The notes under the pieces are model-generated. The model ran no database searches. It saw nothing but the letters and a program-made list of their open reading frames with translations, and was not told the DNA's origin. Made by a program: the position numbers and the translations under genes. This document shows, piece after piece, positions 14,454 through 64,000 of a DNA stretch of 64,000 nucleotides; within the stretch, counting starts at the first letter, position 1, and each line of letters begins with the position of its first letter. Source of the DNA: Weissella confusa (lineage in GTDB: Bacteria > Bacillota > Bacilli > Lactobacillales > Lactobacillaceae); the NCBI GenBank assembly GCA_014332815.1, contig JACSZT010000021.1:1-64000 (forward strand), in the 5' to 3' direction.

Positions 14454-14454
14454 G

Positions 14455-15641: not shown

Positions 15642-15642
15642 T

Positions 15643-16235: not shown

Positions 16236-16236
16236 T

Positions 16237-17225: not shown

Positions 17226-17226
17226 T

Positions 17227-17819: not shown

Positions 17820-17820
17820 A

Positions 17821-20393: not shown

Positions 20394-20394
20394 A

Positions 20395-21185: not shown

Positions 21186-21186
21186 T

Positions 21187-22571: not shown

Positions 22572-22572
22572 A

Positions 22573-27917: not shown

Positions 27918-28907
27918 AGTTGATTACATTAATCAACCCTGCCCCCGGCACTGGCATTGTCACAGCGACTGATCGTTTAGCGCTCGGTGCAATTAGGGCC
28001 AGTCAGGCACTTGGGTTGTCATTCCCGAATGAAATTGGGATTATTGGGTTCGACGGTATTTACATCCACAAGTTATCCTCACCTACCCTAACCACGATTC
28101 AGCAACCATTAGGCGTCAGCGACAATGCCGTCGGAACTGCAATGGCAACCGAGTATCTCATCAACCACGGTTTTGAACATGTCATGTATCTTGGTCTCGC
28201 AATCAACGAGCCGTTCGCACTAAATCGCGAAACAGGTTATCGACAAACGATGTTGAAATACGGGTTACCAATTGAAGCGTATGAGTTACCAAATAACGAG
28301 TGTGCTGCGACTGTTGCGCATTTATTGATTCATTTAACTGATGCCCTAAGACACCACGGCTATACATTGGAAGTCCGCCACGACCGTGAATTTGATTTAA
28401 CGAATGTGGATGCCTTTTTAGTGAGTGGTGCACGAAGGTCGGATATTGAGGCACTGCACCTGCCTGTTCCCGTGGTAATCTATGGCATGGAACCCGGTCT
28501 AATTTCAGTAGTTCATGTCTCTAAAATGACTGTTTCTCGTGTCTTAAACCATCCCGAACTAGTCTCACTAGAAATTCAGGAAGATGTGCAACAGGCAATC
28601 CTTGAGCTTGGGTATGTACAGAACCGAGCAGGCCGTGCCTTGGCGAACAAGCGGCATTACAACATCGCCTTCGTTCTACTTGATGATATTGCAGAAATTG
28701 AGCCGTATTGAAGCGCTTTATTTACAAATTCCACTATAGTTCTCTTGATTACAGAATGAAAGCGTTTTCAGAATGTTACCGGTAACATAAAATTAAATTC
28801 TGCCTGCATTTGAAAGTATGCTACACTTAATATAAGTTGGGCGTGTTAGCGCTTTCATTGATTAGGAGGTTTATTCATGGTCTCACTTAACGACGTTGCT
28901 AAGACAG
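27721..28907 (+). CDS. LacI-family regulator of maltose cluster
   Basis: DI minus 27812-28741, 309 residues. Start ATG 28877 behind TAGGAGGT; stop TAG 27824-27826. [25 protein letters not shown] (the two halves meet only after restoration), hinge [19 protein letters not shown], ligand domain with [76 protein letters not shown] and TTIQQPLG. Divergent from the maltose transporter, so probably its repressor. The effector is likely maltose or a maltodextrin (inference). Confidence 0.9.
27826..27870. terminator. Bidirectional terminator, exporter / LacI
   Basis: AAAAAAGCTTCCGA pairs with TCGGAAGCTTTTT around GCGTTCACTGCTT. It separates the convergent FtsX gene and maltose-cluster LacI gene. Confidence 0.88.
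28711..28876. promoter_or_regulatory. Maltose cluster control region: cre and palindromes
   Basis: TGAAAGCGTTTTCA at 28757-28770 matches the CcpA cre consensus. TGTTACCGGTAACA at 28774-28787 is a perfect palindrome, a likely LacI operator. AAGCGCTT (28711-28718) and TTAGCGCTTTCA (about 28846-28857) are further operator-like sites. On the minus strand TTTCAT, 17 bases, TATAGT reads toward the transporter with its -35 inside the cre. All lie in one block. Confidence 0.75.
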
Positions 28908-28908
28908 T

Positions 28909-32273
<3,365 letters not shown>

Positions 32274-42000: not shown

Positions 42001-45000
42001 CGTTCGTTGTTCCCGTCAAAGTTTGTTGTAGCTCAGTAACTTCGACTTCAGTTCCTGATGAAATATCAACGTAAACCACCACCAATGTTTGTGGATGAGC
42101 CACATAGTAAATTGGCGTATCTGCTGCCGGGTTATCCGGCACGTCCGGTGGATAGTATCCCTTTGTCACATCGACTTGTGGCCAAGTTGGCGTCCCCGGC
42201 ACATCTGGGTACATCGGATTACCTGGATCACCAGGATTATCCGGCGTGACCACAACTGTACCGTGATCCAAGTAGACCTTAGCAAATTGGGTCACGTTGT
42301 CTGCATCGTCATATGTTCCAGCCGTTGCGGTTGCATCTTGATTAACTAGGACATAGCCACGAGCAGCATAAGCCGTTTCAGGCCAATCATCATCACCAGC
42401 CGTTACAACCCAATCCGTCGTTGAAATTTGCTCACCAGTCACTGCATCCAATGTAATCGAACGCTCGAACGTTACGGTACGTGTAACATCAGGTGCCGCT
42501 TCGGCACCATCCGCGTACTGATAATTAATAACGCCATCAATCGTTCGCTTAACACCAGATTCATCAGTGCGATCACCAGGATTATCTGGGTCATTTGGAT
42601 ACGTAATCGGATCACTAGGTACATTCTCAGTACCTTCTGGGAACACCGGTACGTACTGTCCCATTGGGTAGTACGTCACCATATAACTACGATTGAAATC
42701 ATCCGGTGTAATTGTGACCGCCAAAATATCTTCAATGTCGGCATAATAACCCGAAATTACTGGACTTCTGTAGGTAATCGTCGTGTCACCACCCGGATTA
42801 TCCGTTGGCGTTGCTGGTGGCCAGTAACCCGCACTTGGATCATTTGGATCAACCGGCTCCAACGGCGTACCATCTGGTCCTTCCGGTGTGAAACCAGGAA
42901 CGTATGGCAAGGTTGGATTATCCGTGTCACCTGGCGTATCCGGCGTTCCTTGACCCGGCTCCAATCCAACACGGTCATAAACCACACCATCCGTTGGATA
43001 ATCATCGCTTACAAGGACATATCCGGCACGTTCGTACGTCGCAATGTCGGTTGCTGTACGGTAAGCATCAGTTTCATCAGACTTACCCGTCAAATCGACA
43101 ACCTTCAGTGTGTTACCCGTCGTATCGTCGATAAATGTTACGGTCGCCTTTTGCTCATTAGCCATTGGTCCATCTGGTTGGTCTGGATAAACTGGGTCAC
43201 CCGGTGTGTATGGGCTTTCCGGATAGGTTGGGCCACTTGGGTCACTCGGATCAACCGGGTCGCCTGGCGTAAAGATATCCGTGCCTGGTTCCTTTGGACT
43301 GCTTGGGTCAACCGTGACAGTGGCTTGCTTCAAGTGTACTGTGAATGGTTGGTCCGTATCACACGTCAACGTTTCAGTAACCGTTTCAGATGCCTTTTCA
43401 CCATTACTTGCATATGTGTACGTAATCGTACGCGTGACTGTCTGGTTCAAATCATCCTTGGTGACACCACTTGGGTACGTTGGCGTTGCTGGCCACGTTG
43501 GACCACTTGGATTATCTGGATCAACCGGTGTACCTGGGTCACCTGGTGTATCAGGTACCACAAGCTTGGTATACGTGATTGCAACCGTTGTATCATCGGC
43601 CATCGCATCAACATCCGCCTCTTCAGCGACTGTTAATTGACTAGCCACATAGCCAGAAATCAACGGCGAATCAACCTTATCAAGTGTTGAATCAGTTGTC
43701 TGCCAAGCACCATAGGTCACCGCCCCAGTCACTGCATTAACAGTCGCCGTACGACTGGGCGTACCATCTGGGCCTTCTGGTGTATAACCTGGCACATATG
43801 GCAACGTTGGGTTAGCCGGCGTACCTGGATCATTTGGATTATTCACACCAGGCTCCAACGGTTCGGTTGGATCACTTGGGTTATTTGGATAATCAATTGG
43901 ATCATCTGGCACATCCTCATCAGCAGCTGATGGTGGGAATGATGGCACCCATTGACACGTCGATGTATCACTCGACTCACCTGAAATTGTGTCGACTGCT
44001 AGCTCAAGCTTAGTATCATCATCAATAAACGTGATTCGAGCGGCTTGATCATTCGCAACGTAGTGAATAACCGTGTCATCCCCCGGCTTATCCGTCGGCG
44101 TCTCCGGTGGCCAGTAACCCGCACTTGGATTATCTGGATCAACCGGTGTCAACAGCTCACCCGGCGTAAAGATTGGATCACTTGGTGTGCGTGGGTCATC
44201 TGGTGTAATCACCAAAACCGTGCGCTTCAAATGCACCTCAAATTTTTGTTCCGTAGCATCGTCACGGTCGAACTGGAAGTCCGCTGGGAAGTCATCTGAC
44301 ACCAACGTGTATCCTTGCGCTTCATAAGCCTTGATACGATCAGCAGTTGTACCAACCGTCGTACCATCTTCGTAAACATAGTTAACCGTCAAGTTGACCG
44401 TTTGGTTCAAATCTTCGGCCGTCAACCCCGCTGGGTATGTTGGTGTCTCCGGCCAAGTTGGGCCACTTGGATTTGCCGGATCAATCGGTTCACCTGGTGT
44501 ACCTGGTTCAGCTGGATACGTTGGGCTTGATGGATCGCTTGGGTCCACCCCGCCATCCTCGGCTGCAACCGTCACCGCTGTGCTGTATGCCTTATCAGCA
44601 TAGTAGCCGTCAATGACTGGTGACTTGTAGGTATCCAACAAATCATCATCGTTAACCGCTACCCAATCTGAGTACGTCACCTCACCCGTCACCGTGTCCA
44701 ACGTTGCCGTACGCGTAAAGTGCACCGCATCCGTGTGTGGGTCGTGAATGTAACCTGGCACGTAAGGTAACGTTGGGTTCTCTGGCGTACCTGGTTCACT
44801 TGGATTCTCAGCTGGATCCGTTGGTACCGTTGGATCACTTGGATTATTTGGATAATCAATTGGATCCGTCGGTGCACTTGGCGTCGTAGCTGGGAATGAT
44901 GGCACCCATTGTCCCAACTTCTTGTACGTCACGGTCTCACTCACACACTTACCAGCCAATGGATCGACTGATAACGTCGTACCAGTTGTCGCGTCAACAT

Positions 45001-48000
45001 ACGTTACCGAACCAACTTGATCAGCTGGCACGTAGGTAATCACCGTATCCTCACCCGGATTAGCTGGGTTTGGTGGCAAGTAGCCTGAAGATGGGTTGCT
45101 TGGATCAGCCTGTGTTAACGGCTCACCATCTGGTCCTTCCGGCCTTGGGTCACTTGGATTCTTTGGATCATCCGGCGTCACAACCACCGTGACTTGCTTC
45201 AACGTTACCGTGAAATCTTGTGACTTAGCTGTATCACTATCAAACGTAAAGTTAGCTGGATATTTATCATCTACCAGTACATATCCCATCGCCTCATATT
45301 GCTTAATACGATCAGCAGTTGCATATGTGCCCGGTTCATCCTCGTAAACATACGTAATTGTGCGTGTGACCGTTTTGTTCAAATCTGCCGTTGTTACCCC
45401 AGCTGGATACGTTGGCGTTGCTGGCCACGTTGGTCCGCTTGGGTTGTTTGGATCAATTGGATCACCTGGTGTACCAGGTTCCTCAGGATACGTTGGGCTT
45501 GATGGATCACTTGGGTCCACCGGATCGCCCGGCGTAAAGATGACATCTACAAATTCAACCGAAGCCTTGTCTGCCATGTAGCCGACAATCATTGGTGAAT
45601 CAACTTGTTGCCAATCGACATCATCGCCGACTGCCGTCCACTCACCATATGTGACCGCACCTGTCACGGCGTTAACCGTGGCGGTACGTTCGAAGACGAC
45701 ATTGTCCGTCACTGTTGTCGCAGCAGTCTTACCATCTCGCAAGGTTGGATTATCCGTCGTGCCAGGGTCGGCCGGATTATCCGGACCAGGATTCGCTGGA
45801 TTCGTTGGATCATCTGGGTTGTTTGGATAGTTGATTGGGTCACTTGGGACATCTTCAGTTCCCGGTGGGAAATGTGGTACCCACTGACCAACCGCTGTAT
45901 ACGTTACAACCACTGATGTTGACTCAGTTGCACCGCTTGCCAATGTCGTGCCTGTCGTATCATCAATGAAGACAATTCGCGCGGTTTGCTCATTAGCAGT
46001 ATAGGTAATATCTTGGCTCTGCTTAGGATCATCTGGAATAACCGGCGGCCAGTATCCCTCGCTTGGATTGCTTGGGTTAACTGGCTCCAACAGCTCACCA
46101 TCAGGGCCTTGTGGCGTAAAGCCAGGCACGTATCGATCATCTGGCGTCACTGTAATTGCAGCGTGCTTCAAGTGAACCTCGAACGTTTCAACATTGCCAT
46201 CGACACGGTCAAACGCAAAGTCGGCTGGATATTCATCACTGACCAACGTGTAACCTTGAGCGTAGTAAGCAGCCAAACGGTCCGCCGTCGTATACGTCGA
46301 CTTCTCATCCGAGACGCCATCGATATCATCACGGTTAACCGTCTCGTTCAAATCAGTCGTCGTCACCCCAGTTGGGTACGTTGGTACCGCTGGCCAAGTT
46401 GGACCACTTGGATTATCCGGATCAATTGGCTCGCCAGGTTCACCTGGTTCTGCTGGATACGTTGGACTCGATGGGTCACTTGGGTCGACTGGATCACCCG
46501 GTGTGTAAATTGGCGTTGATGGGTTCTTTGCTTCCTTATCAGCGTAGTAGCCAGTCTTAACTGGTGAGTTCACTGCGTCGAACGTTGTGTCATTACCAGT
46601 TGCGACCCACGCACCGTAAGTGACTTCACCCGTTACCGCATCGACTGTCGCCGTGCGCGTGAAGCTAACTTTGTCCGTCGCGGCATCAAAGACCGTATTA
46701 CCTGCCTCATCGACATACGTAATCGTGTCTGGCACATTCGTATTTGAATCACCTGGTTCAAGTGGCGTATCGGCATGAGCTGGGTCATTTGGATACGTCG
46801 TTGGATCAGATGGCACGTTTTCCGTGCCGGCTGGGAATGATGGTACCCATTGTCCCATTGGCTTGTAGACAACTTGGATATTTTCATCCGCCGTCGTTGC
46901 CGTCAAACCAGTTGTGGCATCGACCGCGTGGTACGTAATCGTCGCCTTTTGTTCATCAGCAACATACGTCACAACCGTATCACCACCTGGATTATCGGTT
47001 GGTGTTGCCGGTGGCCAATAACCACCTTCTGGCGAACCTGGCGTTACCGGTTCAAGTGGCGTGCCATCTGGACCTTGTGGCGTAAAGCCTGGTACATATG
47101 GCATGGTTGGATTATCTGGCGTTAGCTCAAGTTGTACGATATACGCTTGATTGGTTGCCGTATCACGATCGAACGTGAAGTCCGTACCTGGATAACCATC
47201 AGCGACCAAACGGTAACCTTGTTGCTCATACATCGCAATGCGTTGTGCTGTGGTGTATGAACTTGTTTCATCAGAATGACCATCAATTGTATCAACTGAC
47301 AAATCCGTATTAGTCGTCACAGCCAAACCGGCTGGATAAGTCGGCGTGGCTGGCCAAGTTGGGCCACTTGGATTGTCTGGATCAATTGGCTCACCTGGCG
47401 TACCAGGTTGTTCAGGATACGTTGGACTTGATGGATCACTTGGGTCCACCGGATCACCCGGCGTAAAGATTGGGTCACTTGGCGTCTTTGGATCATCTGG
47501 CGTAATCGTCTGCGTAATAAGTGATGTCACCTCATCAAAGGTGGTATCACTATTGGCCGCAATCCAATCACCATACGTGATGTCGCCACTGACCGTATCA
47601 AGTGTTGCCGTACGGGTAAACGTCAACGTTTCCGTCGCCGTCGTCGCAGCGGTTTCACCGTTACGATCGTAAACATACATTACGTTACGCGTAACCGTTT
47701 GATTCAAATCATCATGCCATGACGTCGTGCCATCAGACTGTCCCGTAATGTTATCCATGACAAGCGTTTGTTGCGTGTTGTCATCAATATACGTAATTGT
47801 TGCATGCTGCTCATTCGCAATGTAACGCACTTCAATCGACGTATCAGCATCATCTGCAGTCACACCTGTTGCCTCCGCAACTGACGCACGATTTGCCGTA
47901 TAACCCGTAATCGTTAGGTCACCTGGCGTGTAAACCGGTGAACTTGGTGTCTTCGGATCATCTGGGTCAATCGTAATCGTCGCGTGCTTCAAGTGCACCT

Positions 48001-51000
48001 CGAAGGCTTGCGTCGTGTCATCGTCCGTGTCGAACACGAAGTCAGCTGGCCAACCATTAGAAACAAGGCTGTAACCTTGCGCTTGCAAAGCCGCAATCCG
48101 GTCGGCCGTTGTGCCAGCCTCACCGCCATCCTCGTAAACATACGTAATCGTGCGATCAACCGATTCGTTCAAATCGGTTCTCTCTAAGCCGTCCGGATAT
48201 GTTGGTGTTGCTGGCCAAGTTGGGCCACTTGGGTTGTCTGGATCGATCGGCTCACCTGGTGTACCAGGCTCGACTGGATACGTTGGTCCATCTGGGTCAT
48301 CCGGATCAACCCCCCCACTTTCCGTCGTCAAATCTGCCGTTTCAGCAACTTGCGTCAAATCAGCATAGTAGCCGGTAATCACCGGTGATTCAACCGCATC
48401 AAAGGTTGTATCACCGTTCGTCGCAACCCAATCACCGTATGTCACCTTTCCCGTCACCACGTCATACTCGGCAGTGCGTGTGAACTGGACGCTATCTGTC
48501 ACCGTCTTAAGGCCATCCGGTCCTTGCGGCGTAAATCCTGGCACGTATGGGATGACTGGATAATCTGGCGCACCCGGTTCAAGCGGTTGCGTTGGATCAT
48601 CCGGATCGTTTGGATACGTGATTGGATCCGCTGGCACGCTTGGCGTATTCGCTGGGAACGATGGTACCCATTGTCCCATTTGCTTATACGTGACCTTAAC
48701 GTTTTCACACGTTGACGTTGCATCAGAAACACCCGTAATTGTATCGACTGCCAAGTTCGTCTTCGTCGTGTCATCGATAAATGTAATCGTGGCCGTTTGC
48801 TCATTGGCAACGTAATTAATCGTCGTGTCTTCACCTGGATTACCCGTCGGCGTTGCCGGTGGCACATAACCCTTGCTTGGATCACTCGGATTTACTGGTT
48901 GCAGTACACCTGGGTTGTAAATCGGCTGACTCGGCGTCTTAGGATCACTTGGCGTAATCGTAATTGTCGCGTGCTTCAAGTGCACTTCATACGCTTGCGT
49001 CTGACTGTCATCACGATCAAACGTGAAGTCCGCACCTGGATAACCATCAGAAACGAGCGTGTAGCCTTGGGCCAAGTACACTTGCATGCGCTCAGCCGTG
49101 GTAACCTCTTGGCCGTCGGTATATACGTACGTGATGGTTTGCGTCACTGATTCATTCAAATCAGTTTCAGTCAAACCAGCTGGGTACGTTGGCGTCGCTG
49201 GCCAAGTTGGCCCACTTGGGTTATCCGGATCGATTGGATCACCTGGATTGCCCGGTACAGCTGGGTACGTTGGGCTTGATGGGTCACTTGGATCGACCGG
49301 ACCATCAGTCGCCTGAATCCCCGTCACTTCAGCGACTGTTTGCTTATCCGCAACATAGCCAGTAATCACTGGTGAGGTAACCGCATCGAACGTGGTATCA
49401 CTATTCGCTGCAATCCACTCACCATACGTTACCGCACCTGTGACCGGATCAAGCGTTGCCGTACGACTAAACGTTACCGTGTCCGTCTTTGGATCACTTC
49501 CATCTGGTCCTTGTGGCGTGAAGCCCGGCACATCCGGAATGACCGGATAATTTGGTGCCGTTGGATCAGCTGGTTGCGTTGGGTCAGCTGGGTCATTTGG
49601 ATACGTAATCGGATCCGTTGGTACATCAGGCGTACCAGCTGGATATGATGGTACCCATTGTCCCATTGCCGTATAAGTCACGACCAGAGGAATATCGGAC
49701 GTTGACGTCTCATCAGAGTGCCCCGTAATCGTATCCATCGCCAATTGCTTGCCGGTTGTCTTACCAATATATGCAATTGTCGCTTGCTGCTCGTTAGCAA
49801 CATACGTAATCGTCGTATCTTGCGTTGGATCAGTTGGCGTTGCTGGTGGCACATAACCCTTACTTGGGTCACTTGGATCAACCGGTTGCAATGGGACACC
49901 TGGCGTAAAGATTGGTGAACTTGGCGTCTTTGGATCATTTGGATCAACTGTAATCACAGCGTGTTCCAAAACCACTTCGTACGCCTGGTCGTAATCATCT
50001 TCACGATCGAACATAAACTCCGAACCAGGATAACCATTTGAAATTAAGACATAGCCCGCTGCCTCGTAGGCCGCAATCTTATCAGCCGTTGTGGTTGCGG
50101 TACGACTGAATGTAACTGTATCAGTCGCATCATCTGCCGCTGGTGAACCATTCGCGTATTTGTACATGATGGTTTGCGTCACTGATTCGTTCAAATCAGC
50201 GGCTTCCAAACCGCCTGGGTACGTTGGCGTTGGCGTGTCACCAGGGTTAACTGGATAAGTTGGGCTCGTTGGGTCATCCGGATTAATCGGACCCCATTGT
50301 CCCATCTTGTTGTACACAACATTAACCGTCGTGTCCGCATCCTTAGCACCAATACCCGTCACGGCAGCCACCGTCTGCTTATCCGCCACATAACCCGTAA
50401 TCATTGGTGAGTCCACTGCATCAAAGCTTGTATCTGCATTAGTAGCTACCCAATCGCCGTATGTGACTGCACCAGTAACCACATCAACATGATCAACCGG
50501 CTGCAATGGACCATCTGGACCTTGTGGCGTGAAGCCTGGCACATATGGCAACGTTGGATTCTCTGGATCACCTGGGTCGTTTGGATTAGTCTCACCCGGC
50601 GCCAATGGTTCCGTTGGGTCATCTGGATCATTTGGATACGTAATCGGATCCGTTGGTACGCTTGGCGTGTTCGCTGGATATGATGGTCCTAAGCGGTCAG
50701 CCGTTGTGTAGGTACTTGATTCATCTGAACCACCGGTAATCGTATCAACAACCAATGTGTTGCCCGTCACTGTATCAATGTAAGTAATCGTGGCTTTTTG
50801 TTCATCCGCCTTGTACTCGATTGTCGTATCAGTGGTTGGGTCACTTGGCAACGCTGGTGGCCAGTAACCTGAACTTGGGTTATCTCCGTCTGGATACTTT
50901 GGTCCATCTGGGTTATCCGGATTAATCGGCGTTCCTGGCGTCCTTGGATCATTTGGATCAATCGTTTGTGAGCCGTGCGCCAAGGTTACCGTGTACGCTT

Positions 51001-53855
51001 GCGTTACCGTCGTATCACGGTCAAACGTGAAGTCAGTTGGATAGCCATCTTCTTTCAACTCGTATCCGTTAGCCAAGTAATCAGGCGAATCAACTGCATC
51101 CATTGACGTTACCGTCGTTGGCACCCACGCACTGTACGTGTATGCTCCGGTTACCGTATCAAGGGTTGCCGTACGCGTAAAGTGAATCGTCTCCTTAACC
51201 GTCGTCGCCATTGTCTTGCCAGCTTGATCCACATACGTAATCGTCCGCGTCACCGACTCGTTCAAATCAGTCGACTTCAAACCCGTTGTAGTTGGATCAT
51301 CTGGGTTATTTGGATAATCAATTGGCGCGCTTGGCACATCCGTTACACCACTTGGGAATGATGGTACGTACTGACCAATTGGTGAGTAAACGACCCGCTC
51401 TGACATATCCGCTGACGTTGCCGTCAAATCACTCAAAGCAGCGACCGTTTGGCGATCAGCCACATAACCAGCAATGACTATGGCCGTGTACGTAATCGTC
51501 GTGTCTTCAGTTGGCGTCTCGCTTGGTGTTGGTGGCCAGTAACCTGAACTTGGGTTACTTGGATCAACTGGTTCTAATGGCTCACCATCTGGACCTTGTG
51601 GCGTAAAGCCTGGTACATATGGCATCGTTGGATTATCAGGCGTTCCCGGCGTGGCTGGATTATCCTCACCCGGTGTAACAACCGTTTCGTCCCGATCAAA
51701 GGTAAAGTGACTTGGGTAGCCATTGCTTACCAACATCATGCCAGCCAACTTATAAACCATGATGCGGTTATAAGCGGTGTACGTGCTGGTTTCAGCTGAA
51801 CCACCAGTAATCGTATCAACTGCCAAAACGCTACCTGTCTCATCATTGATGTACGTAATCGTGGCTGTTTGCTTAAGTGGCCAAGTTGGTGAATCTGGAT
51901 CGTCCGGATCAACCGGCGTTCCTGGCTCACCAAGTGGGTCTGGGAAAGTTGGTGAATCTGGGTCATTTGGATCAATCAAATCACCTGGTTGATAAATTGG
52001 CTCACCTGGCACCTTTGGATCATCTGACGTAACCGTGATTGTCGCACCCTTGAAGTGAACTTCAAAGGCCTTAACACGGGCCATACGAGCTCGCGGTTGC
52101 GCGCTCTGTTGGGCCGCAACGACATTAATGGTTACAGTACGCGTAAAGACAACCTGATCAGTGACCGTCTCAGCTGCTGTTGACCCATCCTTCTCATAGA
52201 TATAAGTGATAGTATGGTTGACTTCTTCACGCAAATCTTCCAGCGTTACCCCATCTGGCCAAACTGGTGCTCTAGGTACCCAAGAACCAAGTTGACGGTA
52301 AACAACTTGTTGGATGTCATCTTCACTGGTTTCATCCATGCCGGCCACTTCTTCGACCACCAAACGGTCAGCGATGTAGCCCGGAATAACTGGTGATGTC
52401 TTGGCATCGAACTTATCATCACCGTTCACCGCCTGCCAATCAGTGTAAACAAACGGACTTGCCGTTGCGGGCAAGTAACCCGCACTTGGATTCTGTGGGT
52501 CAACCGGTTGGAGTGGCGTACCATCTGGACCTTGTGGCTTAAAGCCAGGTACATATGGGATGACCGGATAACCTGGTGAATTTGGATCAGCCGTCTTCGT
52601 TGGGTCATCTGGATCATTTGGATACGTCACTTCGCCTGGTGTCTTCACCCCTGGCACTTGTGGCACACGAACGTAACCTTGGGCTTCGTAGTCAGCGATT
52701 TGCTCAGCAGTCGTGTATGACGACTTGCTATAACTATCACCAGACAACTCCTCAACATGGAGCACTTGCTGTGTGTTTTGATCAACGAAGCTGACGGTTG
52801 CGTGCTGACGATCAACCTTGTAAACAATGGTCGTATCAGTCGTTGGGTCACTTGGCACGGCTGGTTTCTTCAAGTGGTCCTCATCAACTCCGGCCGGCCA
52901 CTTTGGACCATCTGGGTTGTTTGGATCAATTGGCGCCCCTGGTACACCCGGATTATTTGGATCAACCGTCTTCGTGCCGTGTGCCAACGTGACCACGAAT
53001 GTTTGATTCAACGTTGCATCAGCATCGAATGTCATGCCACCGGCAGGATAACCATCATGCACACGATCAGCCACGTAACCCGGCATACCTGGCACAGCCA
53101 CATCCGGTACGCGTAACCCATCTTCGGCTGTCCAAGGGCCGTACGTCACTTCGCCAGTAACCGTATCAACGGTTGCTGTACGCGTGTACGTCACAATTTG
53201 TGTCTTCGTATCGACAATCGATCCGTCACTTGTACGGAAGATAATCGTACGCGTCGTTGACGATGCCAATGAATGTGGCGTCAATACCTCTGGTACAATC
53301 GCCGGCGTCTCAGGCGTCACTGTTTGAACAGTTTGCTCCGGTTCGACCGGTTCATTTGGTTCAACTTCAACTACCGGTTGCTCGGGCACAACCGTGTACG
53401 TCACGTACTCAGTGAAGTTTGGCGTACCAACTGGAATATCCACTCCTGGTACAAGGTCGACCTCGCGCTTACGACGCTTGAACAAACCAAGAAACAAACC
53501 AAACAACATGGCCAAGCCGGTTGCCTTAGCACCCTCTTGTTCGTCCGAACCAGTGTATGGCAAGACGCCTGAATGTTGCTCAGCAGCGCTTTGTTCGGCT
53601 GTGTAAGCCAACGAAGCAGCGCTGTCAGGTGCAGCCGTTGCTGATTGAACTGCCGTGATTGACCACGTCCAAAGAATTCCATTAAGAATAAATGTTTCAT
53701 GATACTCCCCCTGCTAACATGTTCCCGCTTGCAGTATAGCAACAAATCATGGGAAATATATGAACTTATCATACAAAAACGCCGTCACAGGGCAATTCCC
53801 GTGACGGCGTTTCCGTTATTTATCGTCGTGCTTCTTGCTTGTTTCTTCGGCTTCA
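36037..53855 (-). CDS. Giant LPXTG-anchored adhesin, about 5,860 residues
   Basis: DI plus 36109-53698. Start complement of 36159-36161 behind AGGGGAG; stop 53816-53818. Restored order: N-terminal KQWLRFGATSLLIAIG membrane/signal part; Asp-rich calcium-type motif DKDGDGLDDETGEP; about 200 residues rich in Ser, Ala and Glu; about 800 non-repetitive residues (36.8-39.3 kb); about 13-15 MucBP-like units of roughly 190 residues (39.4-52.9 kb) with ATITYIDDTTG, GYTLVSDGYP, NESVTRTITYVYEDG and YPNDPDDPT motifs and Pro-rich linkers; then LPYTG, a hydrophobic stretch and KRRKRE plus a 13-residue tail. In the raw window the sorting signal appears at the wrong end. A one-base T-run frameshift near 37371-37380 remains. 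Role: attachment to mucus or surfaces (inference). Confidence 0.88.
39400..52950 (-). repeat. MucBP-like repeat array within adhesin
   Basis: Roughly 13-15 related units of about 570-590 bases. Each runs beta-grasp MucBP-like half (NEQKATITYIDDTTGN, DTITGHSDETSTYTTADRI), VHLKHATITVTPDDPKTPS, Pro/Asp linker (PGDPVDPSDPSSPTYP, IDPDNPSGPTWPATPTYP), DLNESVTRTITYVYEDG, TFTRTATLDTVTGAVTYG, SPVITGYVADKQ, MGQWVPSFPAGT, YPNDPDDPT, PVIPYVPGFTPQGPDGTP. Exact unit borders need restoration by software. Such arrays are prone to recombination and to misassembly. Confidence 0.8.
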
Positions 53856-55241
53856 AGTTCAACGCGGACACCGCCTGCAACGGCCTCCCCTTGAAAATAA
53901 TCCATCAAATTAATGTGGTGTGCCATGACATCCGGCGCAGCTTCACGCCAAATTTCTTCATACTGCGGATTGTAGTCAAATGTGACTAGTTTGACATCTT
54001 TTTTAGGTTCTTAAAAAGACGCACACGTTCCGTGACCGCATACGATCGGCCACGCGTCCCACAATAAGACTTGCGTCACCTTGTTTTGAACGTATAGCAA
54101 CCGCATGCGTTCCGAACCATCCCGGTTATACAAAATAGCCACCCGTCGTGAAACGCTCTTGTTATCGAGACCATAATAGATTTCACCCACTAGTTCATCA
54201 TGTTGATTGAAGACCTTATCAACAATGGTTACCTGACGAGCATCATGCAACGCCAAAATTTGATGATGGGCCACGTGATGATCAGCGTGAATATACGCCA
54301 CCTTCATTTCGGCATTTTCGACACTGCCATACGCCTGCGTCATCGTTTCCTCTAACACATCGGCATACATGACACTTGGCTCTTCAGCGGTCAACTTGTC
54401 CAGGAAATATTTCACCATCGCTTCAAATGACAGCACATGCAGCATGCCATGGTCAAAGCGGGTCACGACCACAACCGACATCGCACGCCGGTCAGCCAAA
54501 TCAGTCACCGCATCCGGTACCGTCACTGAAGCCGGTGCAATATCAACCGTTTGGGCACCCCACTCCGTTCGCAAATCTATTGCTTGGGTCTGCGTTCCCG
54601 TCACAATCCAATCGAACTTCTTAGCACGCAATAAATTACGGAAGCCAGTTTCAAACGTGCTGATTGCATCAGTCGTGGCCCCGTTAAACGTAATATAACC
54701 AGTTGCATGAGCATCCGCGACCTGTTGTTGCAATTGCGTGTAATAGGCTTGATCAGAAACTGTTCCATACAGTTGCAAATTAATATCCCGATTTTGCTTA
54801 TGTGCCTTCACCACGGCCGCAATCATATCTTCAACTCGCTTAATGCTATCTGCCAACGCCATCACTATCGCATTAGCAAGGGCGTTCACATCCCCATCCG
54901 CAACCAATTTACCAGCCTTGCCGACAATTGCACGCGGACCATAATCAATGTCATATGAAATCACTGGCGTCCCGGCCGCTTCAGCTTCCAAAATCGTACG
55001 ACCAAAACCTTCTGTTCGTGACGTGAAAACGGTGACCTGTCCCATACTTGCACATGATGATAACGACGCTTGAGATCTTTTAATTTTGTGACGACATCAG
55101 TAGTCTTGTCATCAATCAACATGATTTTCATGTGTCGCCTCCAATTTTGTAATCAAATCTAACCACTTAGCCTGAACATGTTCAGCATCGTATTCGCGTG
55201 CTTGTTCACGGCCAGCTGCACTCGCCTTTTCACGCCAACGT
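53659..55241 (-). CDS. Glycosyltransferase (GT4), frameshifted
   Basis: DI plus 53814-55174, about 453 residues. Start complement of 53698-53700 behind GCAGGGGGAG; stop 55112-55114. N-terminal MKHLFLMEFFGRGQSGRSYA, a DUF1975-like beta part (VFNQHDELVGEIYYGLDNKS, RRVAILYNRDGSERMRLLYV), then a GT-B C-terminal half with FTSRTEGFGRTILEAEAAGT, PVISYDIDYGPRAIVG (UDP-sugar-binding acidic loop) and LVADGDVNALANAI. Resembles poly(glycerol-phosphate) glucosyltransferases and GtfA of serine-rich adhesin loci. A six-A run (complement of 53999-54004) is one base short for the frame, so the gene is broken as written. It lies directly behind the adhesin and probably glycosylates it or teichoic acid. Confidence 0.78.
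53775..53813 (-). terminator. Terminator after adhesin
   Basis: ACGCCGTCAC pairs with GTGACGGCGT around GGGAATTGCCCT, followed by five T on the minus strand. Confidence 0.9.
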
Positions 55242-55835
55242 GCAATTGCAACGTCGCAACTTCATTGCCCATGTCAGTCACACTGATTTCACCATACTTG
55301 TTGTATGACATCGCGTAATCTGGCTTAAACGGCAAATCGTTCAAATATGTCGCTGGTCGTAACCGAATACCCGCAATGCGATACATCAAATATTCACCTG
55401 GAAAGCCATTCCGATATGACTCATTCTCGGTCATGTTCAGGCTGTCACCTTCATAGTTGTAAAGCTTCTTCAATAACTTACCGTTCGACAATTGCATGCG
55501 AATCATAATCGTACGTTGCTTATCATCACGAATCCAACGCTTCACCACATCCGCCTTTTCACCAACCAAATCAAACTGCCAGTTAAAGCCACGTGCAATG
55601 TACTTCACCGCACGTACGGTTTGCTTTTGCCAATCCACGCATGAGGGGGCGACACCAACCACAAATAAAAAAGCGTAGGAAAAAATCTCCCACGCTAGCG
55701 TATTCTATTGACCTGTATAACGAATAATCTCAATGTTCTGATCATCAAACACGTCTTCGAAGAACGCCGTCAAGCAGCTGTTCTCATTGTCAAACAACTT
55801 GCCATCATACATAAACGTCATGCTAATCGGCTGTT
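55045..55835 (-). CDS. Unknown protein, 204 residues, after glycosyltransferase
   Basis: DI plus 55155-55769. Start complement of 55129-55131, overlapping the glycosyltransferase end, with GGAGGCGAC upstream; stop 55705-55707. MKIMLIDDKTTDVVTKLKDL, RNGFPGEYLMYRIAGIRLRP, YNKYGEISVTDMGNE, IARGFNWQFDLVGEKADVV, YDGKLFDNENSCLTAFF, DQNIEIIRYTGQ. The overlap implies a partner of the glycosyltransferase, perhaps a GtfB-like or truncated transferase relative, but I do not recognise a family with confidence. Confidence 0.65.
55666..55696 (-). terminator. Terminator after 204-residue gene
   Basis: AGCGTGGGAGA with TCCTACGCT pairing on the minus strand, followed by six T. Confidence 0.75.
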
Positions 55836-55836
55836 C

Positions 55837-56429
55837 TAATTCTGACGTTACCAGTCGATGAATCGCCAATAACTCATCCCCAACAGTTTCAGGTATCTTC
55901 CCAAACATCAGCTTAACTGTATTTCCCATAAGTCCCTCGCTTTATAGATTCCATCCCTCTCCATCTATCTTGTTATATTTTCAATTCGAAAGCAAGATGA
56001 CAATCATTAACAGACTAGAACATCTTGGCCGCTATTTTGTATTCGGCACAGCAAATCTAATTTCACTTGCATTAACTGCCTGAATAACATGCATTTTAAT
56101 TAGGTATTGTTGCACCTCAACTATTTCATCGACTGTCCAGTCCAGCGCCTCCTGAATGTCCATCACGTTTGCAACTCGCACGCCAGACGCCACATCTGAC
56201 ATAGCTTGCAAAAACCGTACCTGTTCCGTCGGCGCTATGAAATCATGTTGGCCACAAACAATCAAAACCCAAACCCAGCCGTTAAAATTTTCACCGACTT
56301 CGTTCGTGACAATAAATAGAAAAAACGACCACTAGGCACACGCAACTGCGTACACCTAGTGGTCGTTTTGTTTTCATCGACGCCAAACATCCACATAATC
56401 TTCCGGATGTTCAACGAGAGCAAAATATT
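55837..56429 (-). CDS. Unknown protein, 115 residues
   Basis: DI plus 55941-56288. Start complement of 55927-55929; stop 56374-56376. [71 protein letters not shown]. Soluble and helical with a winged-helix-like feel, but no DNA-binding motif I can name. Convergent with the LysR gene over a shared terminator. Confidence 0.6.
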
Positions 56430-57419
56430 GGCTGGCATGACTGAGCCCCACGGTTTAAGCGATAACGCCCGCCAAGATGGCTATGAATTCAATAGCGTCA
56501 CGCGTATCCAAAGTTTGGAATTGTTGCTAATGTTGATTCGCTTGGATAAGCTCATTGCCTTCTTCCCTGAAAACTCACTCTTCAGTACCAACGGCGTCGT
56601 GTTCAAACCCCTCGAAAACACCTCACAGCTATCACAGACAGTCGACATTCTGTTTTCACGTAATTACGGTCTAAATTCAATTCGTGACTTCGAACAAATC
56701 GAAACAACAACACTCGAAGAAGGTAACATGATGGTCGGTGTTGCCGAGGATGATGAGCTTAGTCAATACGATGCCGTCCCCAACGATGCCCTCGCCAACC
56801 GCGATGTCATCTTCGTATCATCCGATCTCGTGAATAACTACGAACAAGCCGTTCAGTTGGCCTACGCAATCGGTTCAACTGATAAGCAGACCTTGTCGAT
56901 TGGTTTCACCACTTATTACGAAACGCAGCTCATGTCACCGTTGTTGCATCAGTTTATGGCGGAACACCCTGAAATTGATATCACAATTTCACAAGATAAT
57001 TTCCGCGATAATAACCAAGCGTTTCGCCTTACCTACTTTGTCGACGCCGTTGATTTAGCCAGCTTTACCGCAGCGGCCCAAAAGAATTTTGTCTCACAAA
57101 CGGCCATCAGTAAACAAATGAAAAACCTGGAAGATGAAATCGGCACCCCCTTGTTCGTTCGTCAGAAGAATCGTGTCACCGTCACATCAGCCGGTCGTCA
57201 ATTCTACAACCACGCCAAGCATTTCACTTGCTGAAATAACCTTACTCATGGTTGTTACCTCTTTATTTTCGGTATAAAATAATCTAACTAGAAGTTTTGT
57301 TTGTTACAAACATCACTTATCAACACAATTAAGTATAGACGCTTGTGAACAAATGAACACAGTTAAAAAGTTTGCTACCCCAACCAAAAGTTACACTAGG
57401 AGATTACCATGAGTCTTGA
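56233..57419 (+). CDS. LysR-family regulator
   Basis: DI minus 56343-57233, 296 residues. Start ATG 57409 behind TAGGAGAT; stop TAG 56317-56319. [43 protein letters not shown] and GRQFYNHAK (assembled from 57409-57419 and 57025-57221), then substrate domain with [36 protein letters not shown] and AFFPENS. Divergent from the CoA-transferase operon, so probably its regulator; the inducer may be an organic acid (inference). Confidence 0.9.
56320..56370. terminator. Bidirectional terminator
   Basis: AAACGACCACTAGG pairs with CCTAGTGGTCGTTTT, extended by GTACGCAGTTGCGTGTG. It separates the convergent 115-residue gene and LysR gene. Confidence 0.88.
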
Positions 57420-59003
57420 GCAAACCAGGGGCTGCCAAGTGGCTCATTCCCTTTTGGTCACGGTTACCAACCGCGCTTGAGTGCATTGCCGTCAAACCTT
57501 GTGGGTGTGACTCAGTTGCATAACGCTCTTCAAGGGCGATTAAAAGTTCCTCTGCGACACCAGCAAGTCCAAATCCACTTACTGCAAGTGTGTCGTTATC
57601 TTTAATCAAGTTTACAGTCTTGGCACCTTCAAGGTCTGGATCAACGAACGTTCCCAAACCAATCTTCGTGATGACACCAGGACCCTTTGTTGCAATGTCG
57701 TGGTACATGCGCGTGATGACACCTTGTGGCAAGTTGTAAGCTTCCAACTCATTGTTGTTAATAGCTTCAGCGATGCGTGGTGAAGCCGCCGCAATACCAC
57801 CAATCCAACGCTTCAAACCTGAGTTGTGGGCTGCTTGGGCAATGGCTTGCACTTCCATGTCCAAGCCTTCCTTATCAAGCGTCAAGTTACCGTTTTCGTC
57901 GGCGTACGTACCACGAATCAATGCCACGTTGATTGGGAACGTTGGGTAACGCAACCACTCGTCACCGTCCAAAGAAATCTTCTTCACGATATCTTCAGTC
58001 GTCTTGGCGTTCAGAGGCAATGCTGGCACTGACTTCAATGGCACACGTACTTCACCAGAGAATGCTGGGTTGTACAACGTGTTTTCCGTTTGGAATTGGT
58101 TTTCTGGTTGGGCTACCACAATATAGTCAACCAAGATACCAGGTACCTTAACCTTCTTAGGGTGCAACGTATTGTTTTCCGTTACCGCTTCAACTTGGGC
58201 GATAACGATACTGGCGTGACCAAAGTCCTTCAAACCGGCAGGCACACCCCCAACTGAACCAGCCTCAGTTGTCAAAACGAAGTCGTTGCTTACACCTTCT
58301 TCAGCTGCAACCGCTGACACGTTAACTGGGATACCAACACCCAAGTTCAAGATGGCGCCTGAACGCAATTCCATTGCTGCACGACGCGCGATAACCTTCT
58401 TTGGATCCATTCCAGCAAAGACCAACTTCTTAGCCGTTTGTGAGATGTCGATGAAACCACCAGCACCAGCCACGCGGCCGTTAAACTTTGAAACGTTGAC
58501 GTTACCCGTTGCATCAGTTTGTGCCAAACCAAGCACTGACAAGTCAATTCCACCGCCATCGTAGAAGTCGAATTGGGCATCCATATCAACCGTTGCTTGT
58601 GAGTTGTACAACATCAAACCGTCAGCCGTCAATTCGAAGACAGCACGCTCAGTCACGTAAACGACTGGTTGTTGGTTGGCTGCCGCGTACTTACCTGAGA
58701 ATGTGATTTGCTCAACATTAGCCACAAACTTAGGGAAACGACCTTCTTCGTCGATGACCAACTTGCCATCTTCAACGTGCTCCTTCAAACCAGCGGCCGT
58801 GAACGATCTGCAACAGTTGCCATAATTAATAGTCCTCTTTTTCTTTCGTATTTTTTCTTATTGGTTAACTAGGGCTGACAATCCGCCCCATTCTTCAGCA
58901 AACAAACCAGCGTCCATTTGCTTCAAGTCGTCACTGATAAGTGGCTTGAAGTCCATGTGCGCCAAGATGTCCTTATCCAAGTCCATTCCTGGTGCAATTT
59001 CAG
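57223..59003 (-). CDS. Acyl-CoA:acetate/3-ketoacid CoA-transferase
   Basis: DI plus 57393-58952, 519 residues. Start complement of 57247-57249 behind AAAGAGGT; stop 58858-58860. Family I CoA-transferase with fused alpha and beta halves (YdiF/propionate CoA-transferase type): [88 protein letters not shown] (with the catalytic Glu), [21 protein letters not shown]-terminus [10 protein letters not shown]. Moves CoA between short-chain acids. Neighbours are an FMN oxidoreductase and an OFA-type carrier. Confidence 0.9.
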
Positions 59004-59993
59004 AATCAACATCAAGTTGACGGCGAATGGCTTATCAGTTCCAGCCTTAACCTTGCGGATTTCCTCGCGCAAACCTTCCTTGTCAAAACCAGCTGATGTC
59101 AAAACACCCAATCCACCGGCGTTTGAAACGGCGATAACCAATTCGTGACGTGAGATACGCGCCATTGATCCTTGAATAAGTGGGTACTTCGTTCCTAGAA
59201 TGATACCTTCAGCAACCACGGCTACGGCACCCAAATCTTCCATCTTCTTAGCCAACTTAACTGAAGGGATCACTGGGATAACCTTGATACCAGCTTCAGT
59301 CAAAGCAGGCATGTATGGCTTTGGCGTACCCGCACCAGTCATAACGAATGGCACTTCTTCTTCGATGATAACTTCAACCATCTCGGGGATGTTCTTCATG
59401 GCATCTGGCACTGGCGTTTCGTCAGCCGTCAAGAAGATCGTACCAGCTTGGATACCTTGGGCACCCAAAGCGTAAGCTGCGGCGACACCACGTCCGTCAC
59501 CGATACCACCGGCAGCGATAACTGGGATGTTAACAGCTGAAGCAACTTGTGGGACCAAAGCAATCGTTGTCGTCTCACCAACGTGACCACCTGATTCCTC
59601 AACGTCACCCTCAAAGACAGCCTTTGACAATGATCCCAATGACAACTCTTCCAAGGCGTCACGTGAAGCACCTGAGTACTCAAGCTCAAGGTACTTAGCA
59701 ATCATAGGGTTCTTGATTGAACGAACTGGGGCACCTGAACGACGACCCGTAACTGTCGTAGCCGTGTCATCGGCGTCCAAAACGGCTTGCTTGAAAGCCC
59801 AACGATTAATTGTTTTGTTTGTCATATTCCTACTCCTCGGTTCCTAACCAGGGAACCCGATATTTAATTAGTAAGTAATCTTCAAGTTGTTAACCACTTC
59901 TTCAGCTTCGTTGAACAATCCTTCAATGATGTCCTTTACTGAACGCTTGCTGTTAACCATACCTGAAATTTCACCGGCCATAACTGAACCGTT
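58807..59993 (-). CDS. FMN oxidoreductase, nitronate monooxygenase/FabK family
   Basis: DI plus 58987-59922, 311 residues. Start complement of 58821-58823 behind AAAGAGGAC; stop 59868-59870. TIM barrel: [123 protein letters not shown]. Could be a nitronate monooxygenase or an enoyl-ACP reductase II-like enzyme; the absence of fab neighbours favours the former. Confidence 0.87.
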
Positions 59994-61181
59994 AGACCAC
60001 TTAGCCAATCCTTTATCTGTTAAGAAACCACCTAGGATCATTGGGATGGGTCCAATTGCTGAGTTGATTGCGAAAGCCGTCATAATGGCTTCCATTGACC
60101 AACCTTTTTCAGCACTTAGCGGACCAGCCAACACACTGAAGGCATAAATAGCACCTGTACATAGCAAAACCACTGCAGAGGCAATTAGCACAATACCGGC
60201 TGTGATAATACCAGAAGCCAAGCCCTTCTTATCAGGGAAAAGCTTGATACTGTTACTCAACGCACCTGAGTATGCAAACCCTTGTCCAAGACCTGCTAAT
60301 ACACCGTATGACAAGTAAAGCATCGTTGTGCTCGTGGCAAAGCCAGTCAAGAAGAAGCCGACTGCAAAAAGGATACCACCCAAGACGATGACCATCTTTG
60401 GTGCACCGGCTTGTTCAGCTGGTGACCAGCCGGCTGGTGCGTAATCCTTTGGCGCAGTTTTAATGAAAAAACCAGCCAAGATGATGATCACAACATACGC
60501 CAAGCCCAAGTAACGGAAAGCGTTCATGACATTTGAAGACTCGATAATCGCATTCGCAATCGGTGCGGCAATAATCGCTGCACCACCGAACACACGACCA
60601 AGCGTGTTGCTCAATGAGTACAAGCTGACATAACCTGCGGCCGTTGCAGCCGTCAAACCGAACATGCGTTGACCGATTGTTGAGGCGTTTGACGCAATCA
60701 TCAAACCGGCAAAGGCACCTGTGAACAACATGAAGAAAATCAAGTAAAACGCTGACGTGGCCAACATTTGCGTCCAATTCTTGTTGATGGGACCGAAGTT
60801 TTCCATCACCATTGGTGGGAAGACTCCCATCACACCACCGAACGTCAAACCTAGGGCAATGATACCGATGGCGAAACCAATTTGTGAATTCATGCCAAGG
60901 ATCAACGCAAAGGCGGCGATGACCACAATCATAATGATGTAAAGGGTCTTATTACGCCCAATCTTGTCAGAAATTGTGCCCCACATGATTTAGTTTGCAC
61001 GCTTCTTAAGCTGTACGTACGTGAAGTTCAACACGATACCAACTAGCGCAATCACAATGGCAACGTAGAATGCCTTTGAGAAATCACCTGATTGACCAGC
61101 CATACCAACGGCAACCTTTGGTGCGAAGAAGGCGGCAACTGAGTAACCGACGAATGTAATACCGTAGTTGACACCTTGGTT
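59797..61181 (-). CDS. MFS transporter, OFA-type organic acid carrier
   Basis: DI plus 59965-61176, 403 residues. Start complement of 59823-59825 behind CGAGGAGTAGG; stop 60990-60992. [11 protein letters not shown], then about twelve helices: LLCTGAIYAFSVLAGPLSAE, GWSMEAIMTAFAINSAIGPI, LSYGVLAGLGQGFAYSGALS, NTLGRVFWGTISDKIGRNKT (the loop motif, formed at junction 60589/60983), MENFGPINQGVNYGITFVGY. Resembles the oxalate/formate antiporter family, consistent with exchange of the acids handled by the CoA-transferase. Confidence 0.88.
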
Positions 61182-61182
61182 T

Positions 61183-62171
61183 ATTACAGCGGCACGAATC
61201 AAATTATTGCGCTGCGCTAGTGTTTGCGTATCATGTTCCTTGCTCATATCTCCAACCCCTTCTACTTTTTACCTTTTATTAGTTTACACCGAAACAAAAG
61301 ATTTTTATTCATGACTATAAGTAAGTGCGTCGCGCACGAAAAAAGGACCCTCGTAACCAACGAGGATCCTTATCGAATTGGCCACCTCTTGCACCTTTTC
61401 GGCCTTCACTTGCGCATCATTTTGTGAGTGAACTGATGTATATTCTCCCATCGCCATTGAAACTGTCCCGGCCAACGCACCAGCGAAACCAGCAATAAAA
61501 ATTGCAAATGAATTTGTCGTCGCACCAGCCACACCAATAACGATTCCTGAAACCGACAGGATCCCATCGTTGGCTCCCATCATTGATGCCATGGCGGCCC
61601 CAATCGCTGAAACTTCGTGATGCAAGCTGAAACCATAACGTTCACGTACTGTTGTTCCTAGTGCATCGTTGGCCATCATTTCCTTGGTTGCTTGCGTTGC
61701 CAGTTCATCAGAAATACCTTGCGCCGCATACTTGTTTTTCACAAACTCAAATTCAGTATCGTATTGCGTTTGCAATGTCACGACCATTGTGAAAATACCT
61801 GCCACAATGTTTCGAATCGTCGCCCGCTTTTCGTTGGCCCCGGACAAATGAGCGGCTGAATACCCGGTAATCGCCAACGCAATTAGCACAGCAATCCCCG
61901 TCGCAATAACACGCTCCTTCACTGGAAACAAGGTAATGGCCAACATTGGCAACAAGGATCCCAATGGAAAAGCGCGATAAAGATTGTAAATTGATTGCTC
62001 GTCGCTGCCCCAACCGAGAACAACACGCCAACAACCGTCAAAATACCGTCGTTCGAACCAAGCACACCGGCACGAATCGCATTCAAGCGTTCTTCCATCG
62101 TTTGATGGGTCTTAACTTTATTATTCATGACGCCATCCCTCCTAGTGTCCAATCAACGTTCCGATATAGTA
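61183..62171 (-). CDS. VIT/CCC1-family metal transporter, copy 1
   Basis: DI plus 61315-62004, 229 residues. Start complement of 61245-61247; stop TAG 62142-62144. MSKEHDTQTLAQRNNLIRAA, VMGANDGILSVSGIVIGVAG (first helix with the VIT signature NDGIL), TVSMAMGEYTSVHSQNDAQ, an acidic soluble loop, SAIGAAMASM, SLLPMLAITLF and three C-terminal helices ending YYIGTLIGH. Members export Fe or Mn from the cytosol or store it. In the raw window the first 17 residues are falsely fused to the MFS C-terminus. Confidence 0.9.
61338..61371 (-). terminator. Terminator after OFA-type MFS gene
   Basis: AAGGATCCTCGT pairs with ACGAGGGTCCTT around TGGTT, followed by six T on the minus strand. Confidence 0.88.
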
Positions 62172-62765
62172 CTTTTACCAGCGGTTTCCGTCGTCACCCC
62201 TCGCGAAACGTAAAACGCGCGAATATCTTCCGCTACCCCAGCTGGATTCACGCGCAATCGTTGTGTTTCGCGATCGACAACAACCTTTTCAGCATCCGCT
62301 TGTGATGACACTGACGCATATTCACCAGAAGCCATCGACAACGCACAGGCCAACAAATCAGCCAAACCATTCGCACCAATCGTGGCTAAGAATTTCCAGC
62401 GAGGTGCCGCCAAAATCATTGCCAACAACGGGAACGCCCCACCGACAGCCGCACAAATCAAAGATGAAACGGCCGCTGACCATGGACTCACATAGTGTCC
62501 CAATTGGACATCGTACTTCGTTGCCAAAATCGTTTCCAACGGCGCCTTAGCCATCAGCTCATCCGCACCCAATTAACAAAAAAGACCGAGCCTAAACTCA
62601 GTCTTACTTAATGTTTATTTTACCTAACTTTAGAAGAACATGCCAATGCCATAGTGGATGGCAATCGTCAAAAGTCCGATAATCACGTTACGCTTAATCG
62701 CTTTGATTGGGAATCCCTTACCAATTACGGCACTTAGATACCCAGTCAACGCCACGGCAACCACC
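61975..62765 (-). CDS. VIT/CCC1-family metal transporter, copy 2
   Basis: DI plus 62018-62704, 228 residues, 13 bases after copy 1. Start complement of 62126-62128 behind TAGGAGGGA; stop 62630-62632. MNNKVKTHQTMEERLNAIRA, GVLGSNDGILTVVGVLFSVG, ALSMASGEYASVSSQADAEK, APWSAAVSSLICAAVGGAFP-like region and C-terminal helices GFPIKAIKRNVIIGLLTIAI, HYGIGMFF. A tandem paralogue, perhaps forming a heterodimer with copy 1. Confidence 0.9.
62577..62607 (-). terminator. Terminator after VIT pair
   Basis: AAGACTGAG pairs with CTCGGTCTT around TTTAGG, followed by six T on the minus strand. Confidence 0.82.
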
Positions 62766-62766
62766 C

Positions 62767-63755
62767 AACGTCGCCGCCAGTGCATTCGGTGCGACTTCAT
62801 AGGCATCATATTGCGCATCAATGCCCGCTTGTTTAAACGCAGCATTATGCATTGCTGGTGATTTTGAATGACGGGCCGGGTAGCCCAAAAGTCCATATCG
62901 TGTCGTTGCCATATCAAGTGCGCTCCTCACTCCTGTTGTTACCTTCCAGCTTACCAAATTAAACGCTGGCTCGCGTAACGTCCGCCAAAAACCAGCTCCG
63001 TCGGTTGAATCTCCAATCGTTTTGCCATCGCGAATCACGACGGTGTTAACCGCTGAAAGCCGACGAGCTAATGGCGTCAAGTCATCCAAGTACAGCATAA
63101 TCGCTTCCTTAAACGGCATCGTCACATTGAAACCCGCCACGCCAGATGCAACCAAACTTTTTATCAAATCGGCATATGGCAAATACACCCCAATTTCTTC
63201 CAAATCATGCAATTCAACGCCCGCCAAATCATTGACCATCGCCGCTTTTTCTGGGAAACGTTCACTTTGACGATTGAACACGTGCAACGTCACCGACTTC
63301 GGCGCCGTCGCCATAATCGCGCGGGCTGCCCCACCAGTACCAATCAAAATGACTTGGTCTCTCAACGCCCCTTGACCAATCAACATGGCAAGGCCGTCAT
63401 CTGCTTGACGTCCAGCTGCACGGGCCGCTGCCACGAATGGCGTCGGCTCTTTCTTATAGATGATATCAACTACCTGGACATCTGGTTGCGTTTCATAGAA
63501 TTGTTCAGTTGAAAGAATCGACACGTCCGATTGCATCCCCACATTCGTTGCGTTCACTAACCGTCGCAAAGCCCACGCGTTCCTCGTGTGCATACACATT
63601 TTGCAAGCCGGCTGCTGTCGCTGCTGCGAGAGCCTGTTGCGCGGCTTGCACATTCTTCATGACTAAAATCATGGTTACTCTTCTCCTTCTTCAGCTGACA
63701 TAATCGCCTGCTTCATGACGTTGATATCAGGTAATTGACCGGTCCATTGTTCAAA
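62767..63755 (-). CDS. aroE: Shikimate dehydrogenase
   Basis: DI plus 62818-63639, 273 residues. Start complement of 62910-62912 behind AGGAGTGAGGAG; stop 63675-63677. MATTRYGLLGYPARHSKSPA (shikimate-binding SxS), FNVTMPFKEAI (catalytic Lys), STDGAGFWRTL, DQVILIGTGGAARAI (NADP loop), INATNVGMQSD-type motif, QADDGLAMLIGQGAL, EQWTG near the end. Reversed blocks in the raw window put this N-terminus last. Overlapping translation with the DAHP synthase gene next to it indicates an aromatic amino acid operon. Confidence 0.93.
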
Positions 63756-64000
63756 ACATAACGTGTTCAGCTGACTCGATCGAATCCGGCCCTGCCATCA
63801 AGACAAAGTTGTCTCCACCAATCACTGAGTGGGCGGTCTTAATCACCGTATCAGCTGGGTGGAAAAGTCGTGAACTCTTCAATGCCGCCGGGTGCTTTTC
63901 AATCACTTCAGCAACATCAGCTTCATTCACAAATGGGACTTCTGCCAACGTTTGGTATTGCCCAACAATTTCGACATCCCGCGTGTCCATAATTTCCGTA
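63559..64000 (-). CDS. DAHP synthase, partial at window edge
   Basis: DI plus 63642 onward. Start complement of 63670-63672, four bases after the aroE stop, behind AGAAGGAGAAG. MILVMKNVQAAQQALAAATA, an N-terminal ferredoxin-like regulatory domain, then VIGGDNFVLMAGPDSIESAE. The final 46 bases encode TEIMDTRDVEIVGQY, which in type Ib DAHP synthases lies about 50 residues further on. That gap equals the 151 bases of this last block that lie beyond the window. First enzyme of the shikimate pathway. Confidence 0.88.

Follow-up and report, generated by a model that had tools for sequence, protein, structure and literature searches.

Bases 1–64,000 of the 130,551-base contig C14 (G000:C14:1-64000; hereafter the window, 64,000 bases in total) are stored in a scrambled order, and this scrambling reflects faulty file processing rather than a feature of the genome. 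The stored record is corrupted in part of one Weissella assembly. In each consecutive stretch of 198 bases, counted from base 1 of C14, 197 bases were reverse-complemented in place and the 198th was unaltered. We consider it all but certain that this arose in a computer during assembly finishing, through a faulty reverse-complement step. The assembly (G000) comprises 2,294,552 bases in 24 contigs and has an identity of ~92% to W. confusa. Its size is normal; however, its stated completeness is 66.51%, compared with 95–100% in the other 27 Weissella genomes. The sequence we examined is the stored copy of this genome; C14 was covered end to end and the other contigs were sampled. Relatives used for comparison were G003, taken to be W. 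confusa VTT E-062653 on grounds that include an identical DAHP synthase, W. confusa DSM 20196 and a near-complete relative in three contigs (G024). Alignments were complemented by a reference-free score, based on long reading frames located behind a ribosome-binding motif.

Slices of the window were aligned to G003 over 54451–63953 (48 alignments) and to G024 over 13267–34451 and 49303–69893 (91 and 94 alignments, respectively, the latter range running past the window). Over its final 2 kb, the window matched contig C57 of G003 in 11 pieces, nine of them 195–200 bases long, all on one strand and in reversed order. Within the first 103,000 bases of C14, 82 of the 520 slices were placed gap-free on a 20-kb reference stretch, and the step between neighbouring placed slices was exactly 198 in 70/70 pairs. 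A period scan of the whole of C14 at phase 0 scored 198 best among 541 periods (60 to 600). Together, these two results exclude a chance origin of the pattern. The coordinates of the slices are presented in Table 1.

Table 1 Slices and untouched bases in the window, with the basis of each assignment.
Feature	Start	End	Strand	Basis
Whole slices of 198 bases (n = 323)	1	63954	.	Period/phase scans and alignments
Inverted slice: start of DAHP synthase (~40 codons) and end of the preceding gene, aroE	63559	63755	-	63558–63757 = G003:C57 40545–40744
Untouched 198th base	63756	63756	+	By rule (65/70 versus 13/70)
Inverted slice: DAHP synthase residues 39–104	63757	63953	-	G003:C57 40348–40544
Untouched 198th base	63954	63954	+	By rule
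First 46 bases of slice 63955–64151 (residues 105–171), cut by the window edge	63955	64000	-	Alignment to G003:C57

The final base of each slice behaved differently from the rest. Agreement with the reference was 0.87–0.98 at the 15 listed phases between 0 and 196, versus 0.21 at phase 197. Across the 70 testable slices, the 198th base was identical 65 times to the reference base at its unflipped position, 13 times to the base expected had it been inverted with its slice and once to the complement in place. A plain 198-base inversion was ruled out, as the 198th base matched in place and not with its slice. This behaviour was maintained with other references and in other contigs. The 198th base was left in place in unit 2 of contig C18 (33/35 and 70/79), in unit 1 of C18 (55/59), in repeats of the C14 comparison (62/66, 69/72 and 66/73) and in C15 (77/84); three of these repeat references, when tried on the opposite strand, gave zero slice placements. 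Steps other than 198 occurred in two of the repeat comparisons (2/81 steps of 199 in one, 1/74 of 196 in another), a size that small insertions or deletions would give. The short slices at the ends of pieces were inverted whole. This included the 69-base final slice of C14, seen through three G003 repeat copies at 84–88% identity whose matches at the contig end overran the slice border by 6 bases, and the 82-base final slice of C18 unit 1 (C18 60391–60472), in which 82/82 bases were inverted. As expected of a faulty chunk-wise reverse complement, the unit was constant from the start of the piece (phase 0 in C14 and C18, and again from C18 60473) and, for the slices that could be aligned, units were inverted with their order kept.

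At the right edge of the window, the slices divide the gene for DAHP synthase. In G003 this frame occupies C57 39670–40659 on the minus strand, and, of the 27 other Weissella genomes searched, 20 carried the protein unbroken and seven gave no match. Only in G000 did it occur in six pieces, all on the minus strand and in ascending order: residues 1–40 at 63553–63672, 39–104 at 63757–63954, 105–171 at 63952–64152, 171–237 at 64150–64350, 237–303 at 64348–64548 and 303–329 at 64666–64746. The original prediction, made from the window alone, held that its last 46 bases encode a DAHP synthase segment belonging about 50 codons downstream of the preceding block's end, as if a longer sequence had contained the block 63955–64151 and this entire block had been inverted. 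The G003 alignment bore this out, with the segment starting ~51 codons (152 bases) downstream. C14 63956–64151 corresponded to G003:C57 40151–40346, on the same strand as the preceding slice, and the part inside the window (63956–64000) to 40151–40195. The block was inverted as a whole, with the refinement that 197 inverted bases are followed by one untouched base.

The scrambling had also been expected to continue past the window at the same 198-base phase, an expectation to be abandoned if colinear sequence directly followed position 64000. Slices at 63956–64151, 64153–64347, 64351–64547 and onwards to 74447, the end of the reference stretch, kept to this phase. Over C14 103001–130551, the best phase by the reference-free score was 158, the value expected if the phase ran unbroken; scrambled sequence, rather than colinear sequence, thus extends through the contig end. 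The inference that the window starts at the contig start was correct, as it begins at base 1 of C14. Likewise, since the scrambling sits in the stored genome, it was already there when the window was cut. The earlier interpretation is therefore supported. To it we add that only part of the assembly is affected, that each slice retains one untouched base and that, in the two contigs open to this test, the scrambled pieces are the ones needing a flip.

Undoing the operation restored colinearity. For C14 50001–80000, the number of alignments to DSM 20196 dropped from 99 to 3 and the longest grew from 217 to 18,427 bases (91.7%), whilst for VTT E-062653 the number dropped from 104 to 2 and the longest grew from 213 to 18,769 bases (91.9%). 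Alignments to a second DSM 20196 record decreased from 112 to 15; for three more remote Weissella loci, the counts went from 20 to 2, 9 to 5 and 15 to 10. Across the whole of C14, the reference-free score was 4260 as stored and 19530 once restored, versus 13524 for the next period (135) and a median of 1511; leaving 0 or 2 untouched bases per slice gave 16870 and 16943, respectively. The restored stretch 62755–69415 contained seven frames of 294, 329, 355, 392, 431, 167 and 240 codons, matching G003 in sizes and order. The first two, aroE and DAHP synthase, were named by Pfam matches of the G003 proteins, and the latter now lay in one piece at 63642–64631. The inverse operation thus recovered genes as well as colinearity.

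We further investigated the occurrence of the scrambling across the assembly. By the reference-free score, C11, C12, C14, C18 and C24 were scrambled from the contig start and C20 from approximately base 141, and C19 10001–20000 also looked scrambled. By alignment, scrambling was found in C12 2965–6731, C15 10891–32000 and C24 2168–19403. C15 was mixed by the reference-free score, but the alignment identified it as scrambled at phase 0 over 12001–32000. Other stretches were normal: C23 1–20000 gave one 10.7-kb match plus shorter ones, the end of C24 gave 12.8-kb and 20-kb matches and C13 111479–120000 gave a single unbroken 8.5-kb match. The starts of C13, C16, C17, C21, C22 and C23 scored highest as stored, and the sampled stretches of C13, C16, C17, C21 and C22 looked normal. 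Scrambling of the whole genome was ruled out by these normal stretches and as-stored maxima. C2–C7 consisted of N throughout, and C1, C8, C9 and C10 were below the size usable for the reference-free score.

This score was noisy in windows of 10–20 kb. Despite a normal look, the restored score exceeded the stored score in C13 20001–30000, C17 1–10000, C16 10001–20000 (slightly) and C13 100001–120000, which we took as noise. The best phase deviated from that expected in C14 20001–60000, C15 10001–20000, C24 10001–20000, C18 100001–130000 and C18 130001–150000. Over C18 110001–130000, the stored score (2890) was greater than the restored score (1538); this region was dominated by stored frames of 2294 and 2905 amino acids and by a restored frame of 5242 codons. 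In C20, bases 1–139, ahead of the scrambled phase, were colinear with a multi-copy contig-end sequence of G003 and may perhaps be a short unit of their own.

Two contigs, C18 and C24, were informative about the strand and order of the affected pieces. C18 consists of two scrambled units directly joined at 60472/60473, with the phase restarting at 60473 and no N in its first 150,000 bases. Against G024, unit 1 ran from 350,106 (C18 2970) to 407,005 (C18 60472) and unit 2 from ~92,500 to 350,098 (C18 312,327), both locally on the minus strand with ascending slices. In G024, the point where unit 1 begins is thus 8 bases from the point where unit 2 ends, whereas the stored contig separates the two by 309 kb; they come together only when each unit is flipped as a whole and the stored unit order is retained. 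In C24, the scrambled start (C24 1983–2092 = reference 1,388,022–1,388,131) and the beginning of the normal stretch (C24 230,664 = reference 1,382,943) were 5 kb apart in the relative, with the same local strand. The switch from scrambled to normal sequence occurred between ~220 and 230.7 kb; a comparison of reference 1590–1630 kb with C24 200001–240000 gave zero matches at ≥85% identity. In both contigs, and in these two only, we could observe that just the pieces needing a flip were affected and that flipping them whole gives a colinear contig. The strand and order of these units therefore place the fault in a reverse-complement step.

Two further features of C18 were observed near its unit borders. 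Matches to tRNA and 5S rRNA genes were located at C18 60692–61173, just past the join of the two scrambled units. At the start of unit 1, C18 1–2969 had no G024 match beside the adjoining bases, and 139 of its bases matched contig C2 of G024; these first ~3 kb may be a mobile element that coincides with a contig break.

The faulty reverse-complement step most probably operated as follows. An assembled piece would have been needed on the other strand before joining or storage, and the routine would have taken its sequence in buffers of 198 characters, reverse-complementing the first 197 of each and leaving the 198th as if it were a line end. The buffers would then have been written in their original order, where a correct flip would also reverse the order of the buffers. 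A short last buffer would be inverted whole, as expected with a real line end there. Pieces with no need of a flip would have been left untouched, and the units would have been joined afterwards in the right flipped order. The reading in 198-character buffers, and the program responsible, are what we infer; the untouched 198th base, and its absence from the two short last slices, would be consistent with a routine that treated the final character of its buffer as a line end.

Reverse-complementing a sequence line by line without reversing the line order is a programming error. The scrambling described here resembles it, as units are reverse-complemented, their original order is kept and the phase is counted from the sequence start. 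It differs in that the unit is 198, not a usual line width, and in that the last base is untouched. These two differences suggest a fixed read buffer applied to unwrapped sequence. Such an artefact was not named in the titles and abstract openings listed by a literature search, material too partial to prove its absence from print.

If the scrambling had been made whilst preparing the sequence for analysis, the deposited assembly would be free of it. This is very improbable, even though the sequence examined is a stored copy and a 50-mer spanning a junction gave zero matches in the collection of genome contigs searched, a collection from which the genome itself may be missing. A preparation fault would hardly account for scrambling that restarts at the internal join of C18, stops inside C24 and follows the strand and order required for joining, nor for the normal sequence of the sampled stretches of other contigs. 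Moreover, a completeness of 66.51% is low for the genome size, as expected of a quality score computed on the scrambled file, and suggests that the archive copy carries the scrambling.

Ordinary read misassembly, through chimeric joins or collapse of repeats, is an order of likelihood lower again. The assembly is a draft and one of its joins adjoins the tRNA and 5S rRNA genes, both of which would suit misassembly, but the period refutes it: this process gives no constant 198-base period with an untouched base, and undoing the period recovered 18 kb of colinearity. Least credible of all, to the point of being negligible, is a real DNA rearrangement in which recombination or repair inverted hundreds of adjoining segments in the cell: all that favours it is the stored order itself. 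Against it stand an exact period (70/70 steps), a phase counted from the contig start, a single untouched base in every slice, slice ends without inverted repeats and the cutting up of genes such as that for DAHP synthase; the strict period together with the phase restart at the unit border excludes recombination.

Invertible DNA segments are known from phase variation and shufflons. Like these, the slices are inverted segments in a bacterial genome; unlike these, their ends lack inverted repeats, their period is strict, they have hundreds of neighbours and they cut through metabolic genes. Flanking inverted repeats were sought in all 323 slices of the window and were not found. Identity at the slice ends was 0.251. 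The 197 other phases gave 0.250 (sd 0.007), and exact 6-base matches between slice ends numbered zero in the 323 slices.

The file-processing artefact affects how genes in this record are read. Frames can stay open across slices because 198 equals 3 × 66. Gene calling may consequently yield long, plausible proteins whose 66-residue blocks are misordered, and the shuffled pieces still give matches in family searches. A stored 311-amino-acid frame (62718–63653) gave two separate stretches of match to the N-terminal domain of shikimate dehydrogenase, and the VIT family was matched by another pair of stored frames, in two stretches for one and three for the other, whereas the two intact G003 proteins tested had one family stretch each. 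A VIT-family paralogue in C18, colinear with the window, was considered as a second copy with the same scrambling and rejected, as the two phases differ; by our working from the alignments, slices overlapping over most of their length produce the common diagonal. The window also contained a stored open frame of 5401 amino acids (37406–53611). On restoring, a frame of 5478 codons occupied 37262–53698 on the opposite strand, perhaps encoding one giant protein. Long frames in the window, the 5401-amino-acid frame included, should not be taken as stored. Very long frames were also observed in restored unit 2 of C18 (5242 codons at 109322–125050 and 3583 codons at 127290–138041).

The scrambling reveals no new biology and its significance lies in data quality. 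Records of this kind mislead scans that look for unusual gene organisation, shuffled domains or rearranged sequence. The signature is easily tested, consisting of low completeness at normal genome size together with breaks at every 198 bases when the sequence is aligned to relatives. It is possible, though rather unlikely, that the fault resides in a widely used tool for assembly joining or file conversion and has silently corrupted other deposited genomes. If so, there should be further normal-sized genomes of low completeness with proteins shuffled in 66-residue blocks.

Elements shorter than a slice can survive as stored. A lysine riboswitch (RF00168, 115.7 bits) was found on the minus strand at 6951–7120 and is intact in the stored sequence because it lies wholly inside one slice (6931–7128). 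Restoring the slice would place it on the plus strand, just ahead of a frame on that strand that starts at 7162.
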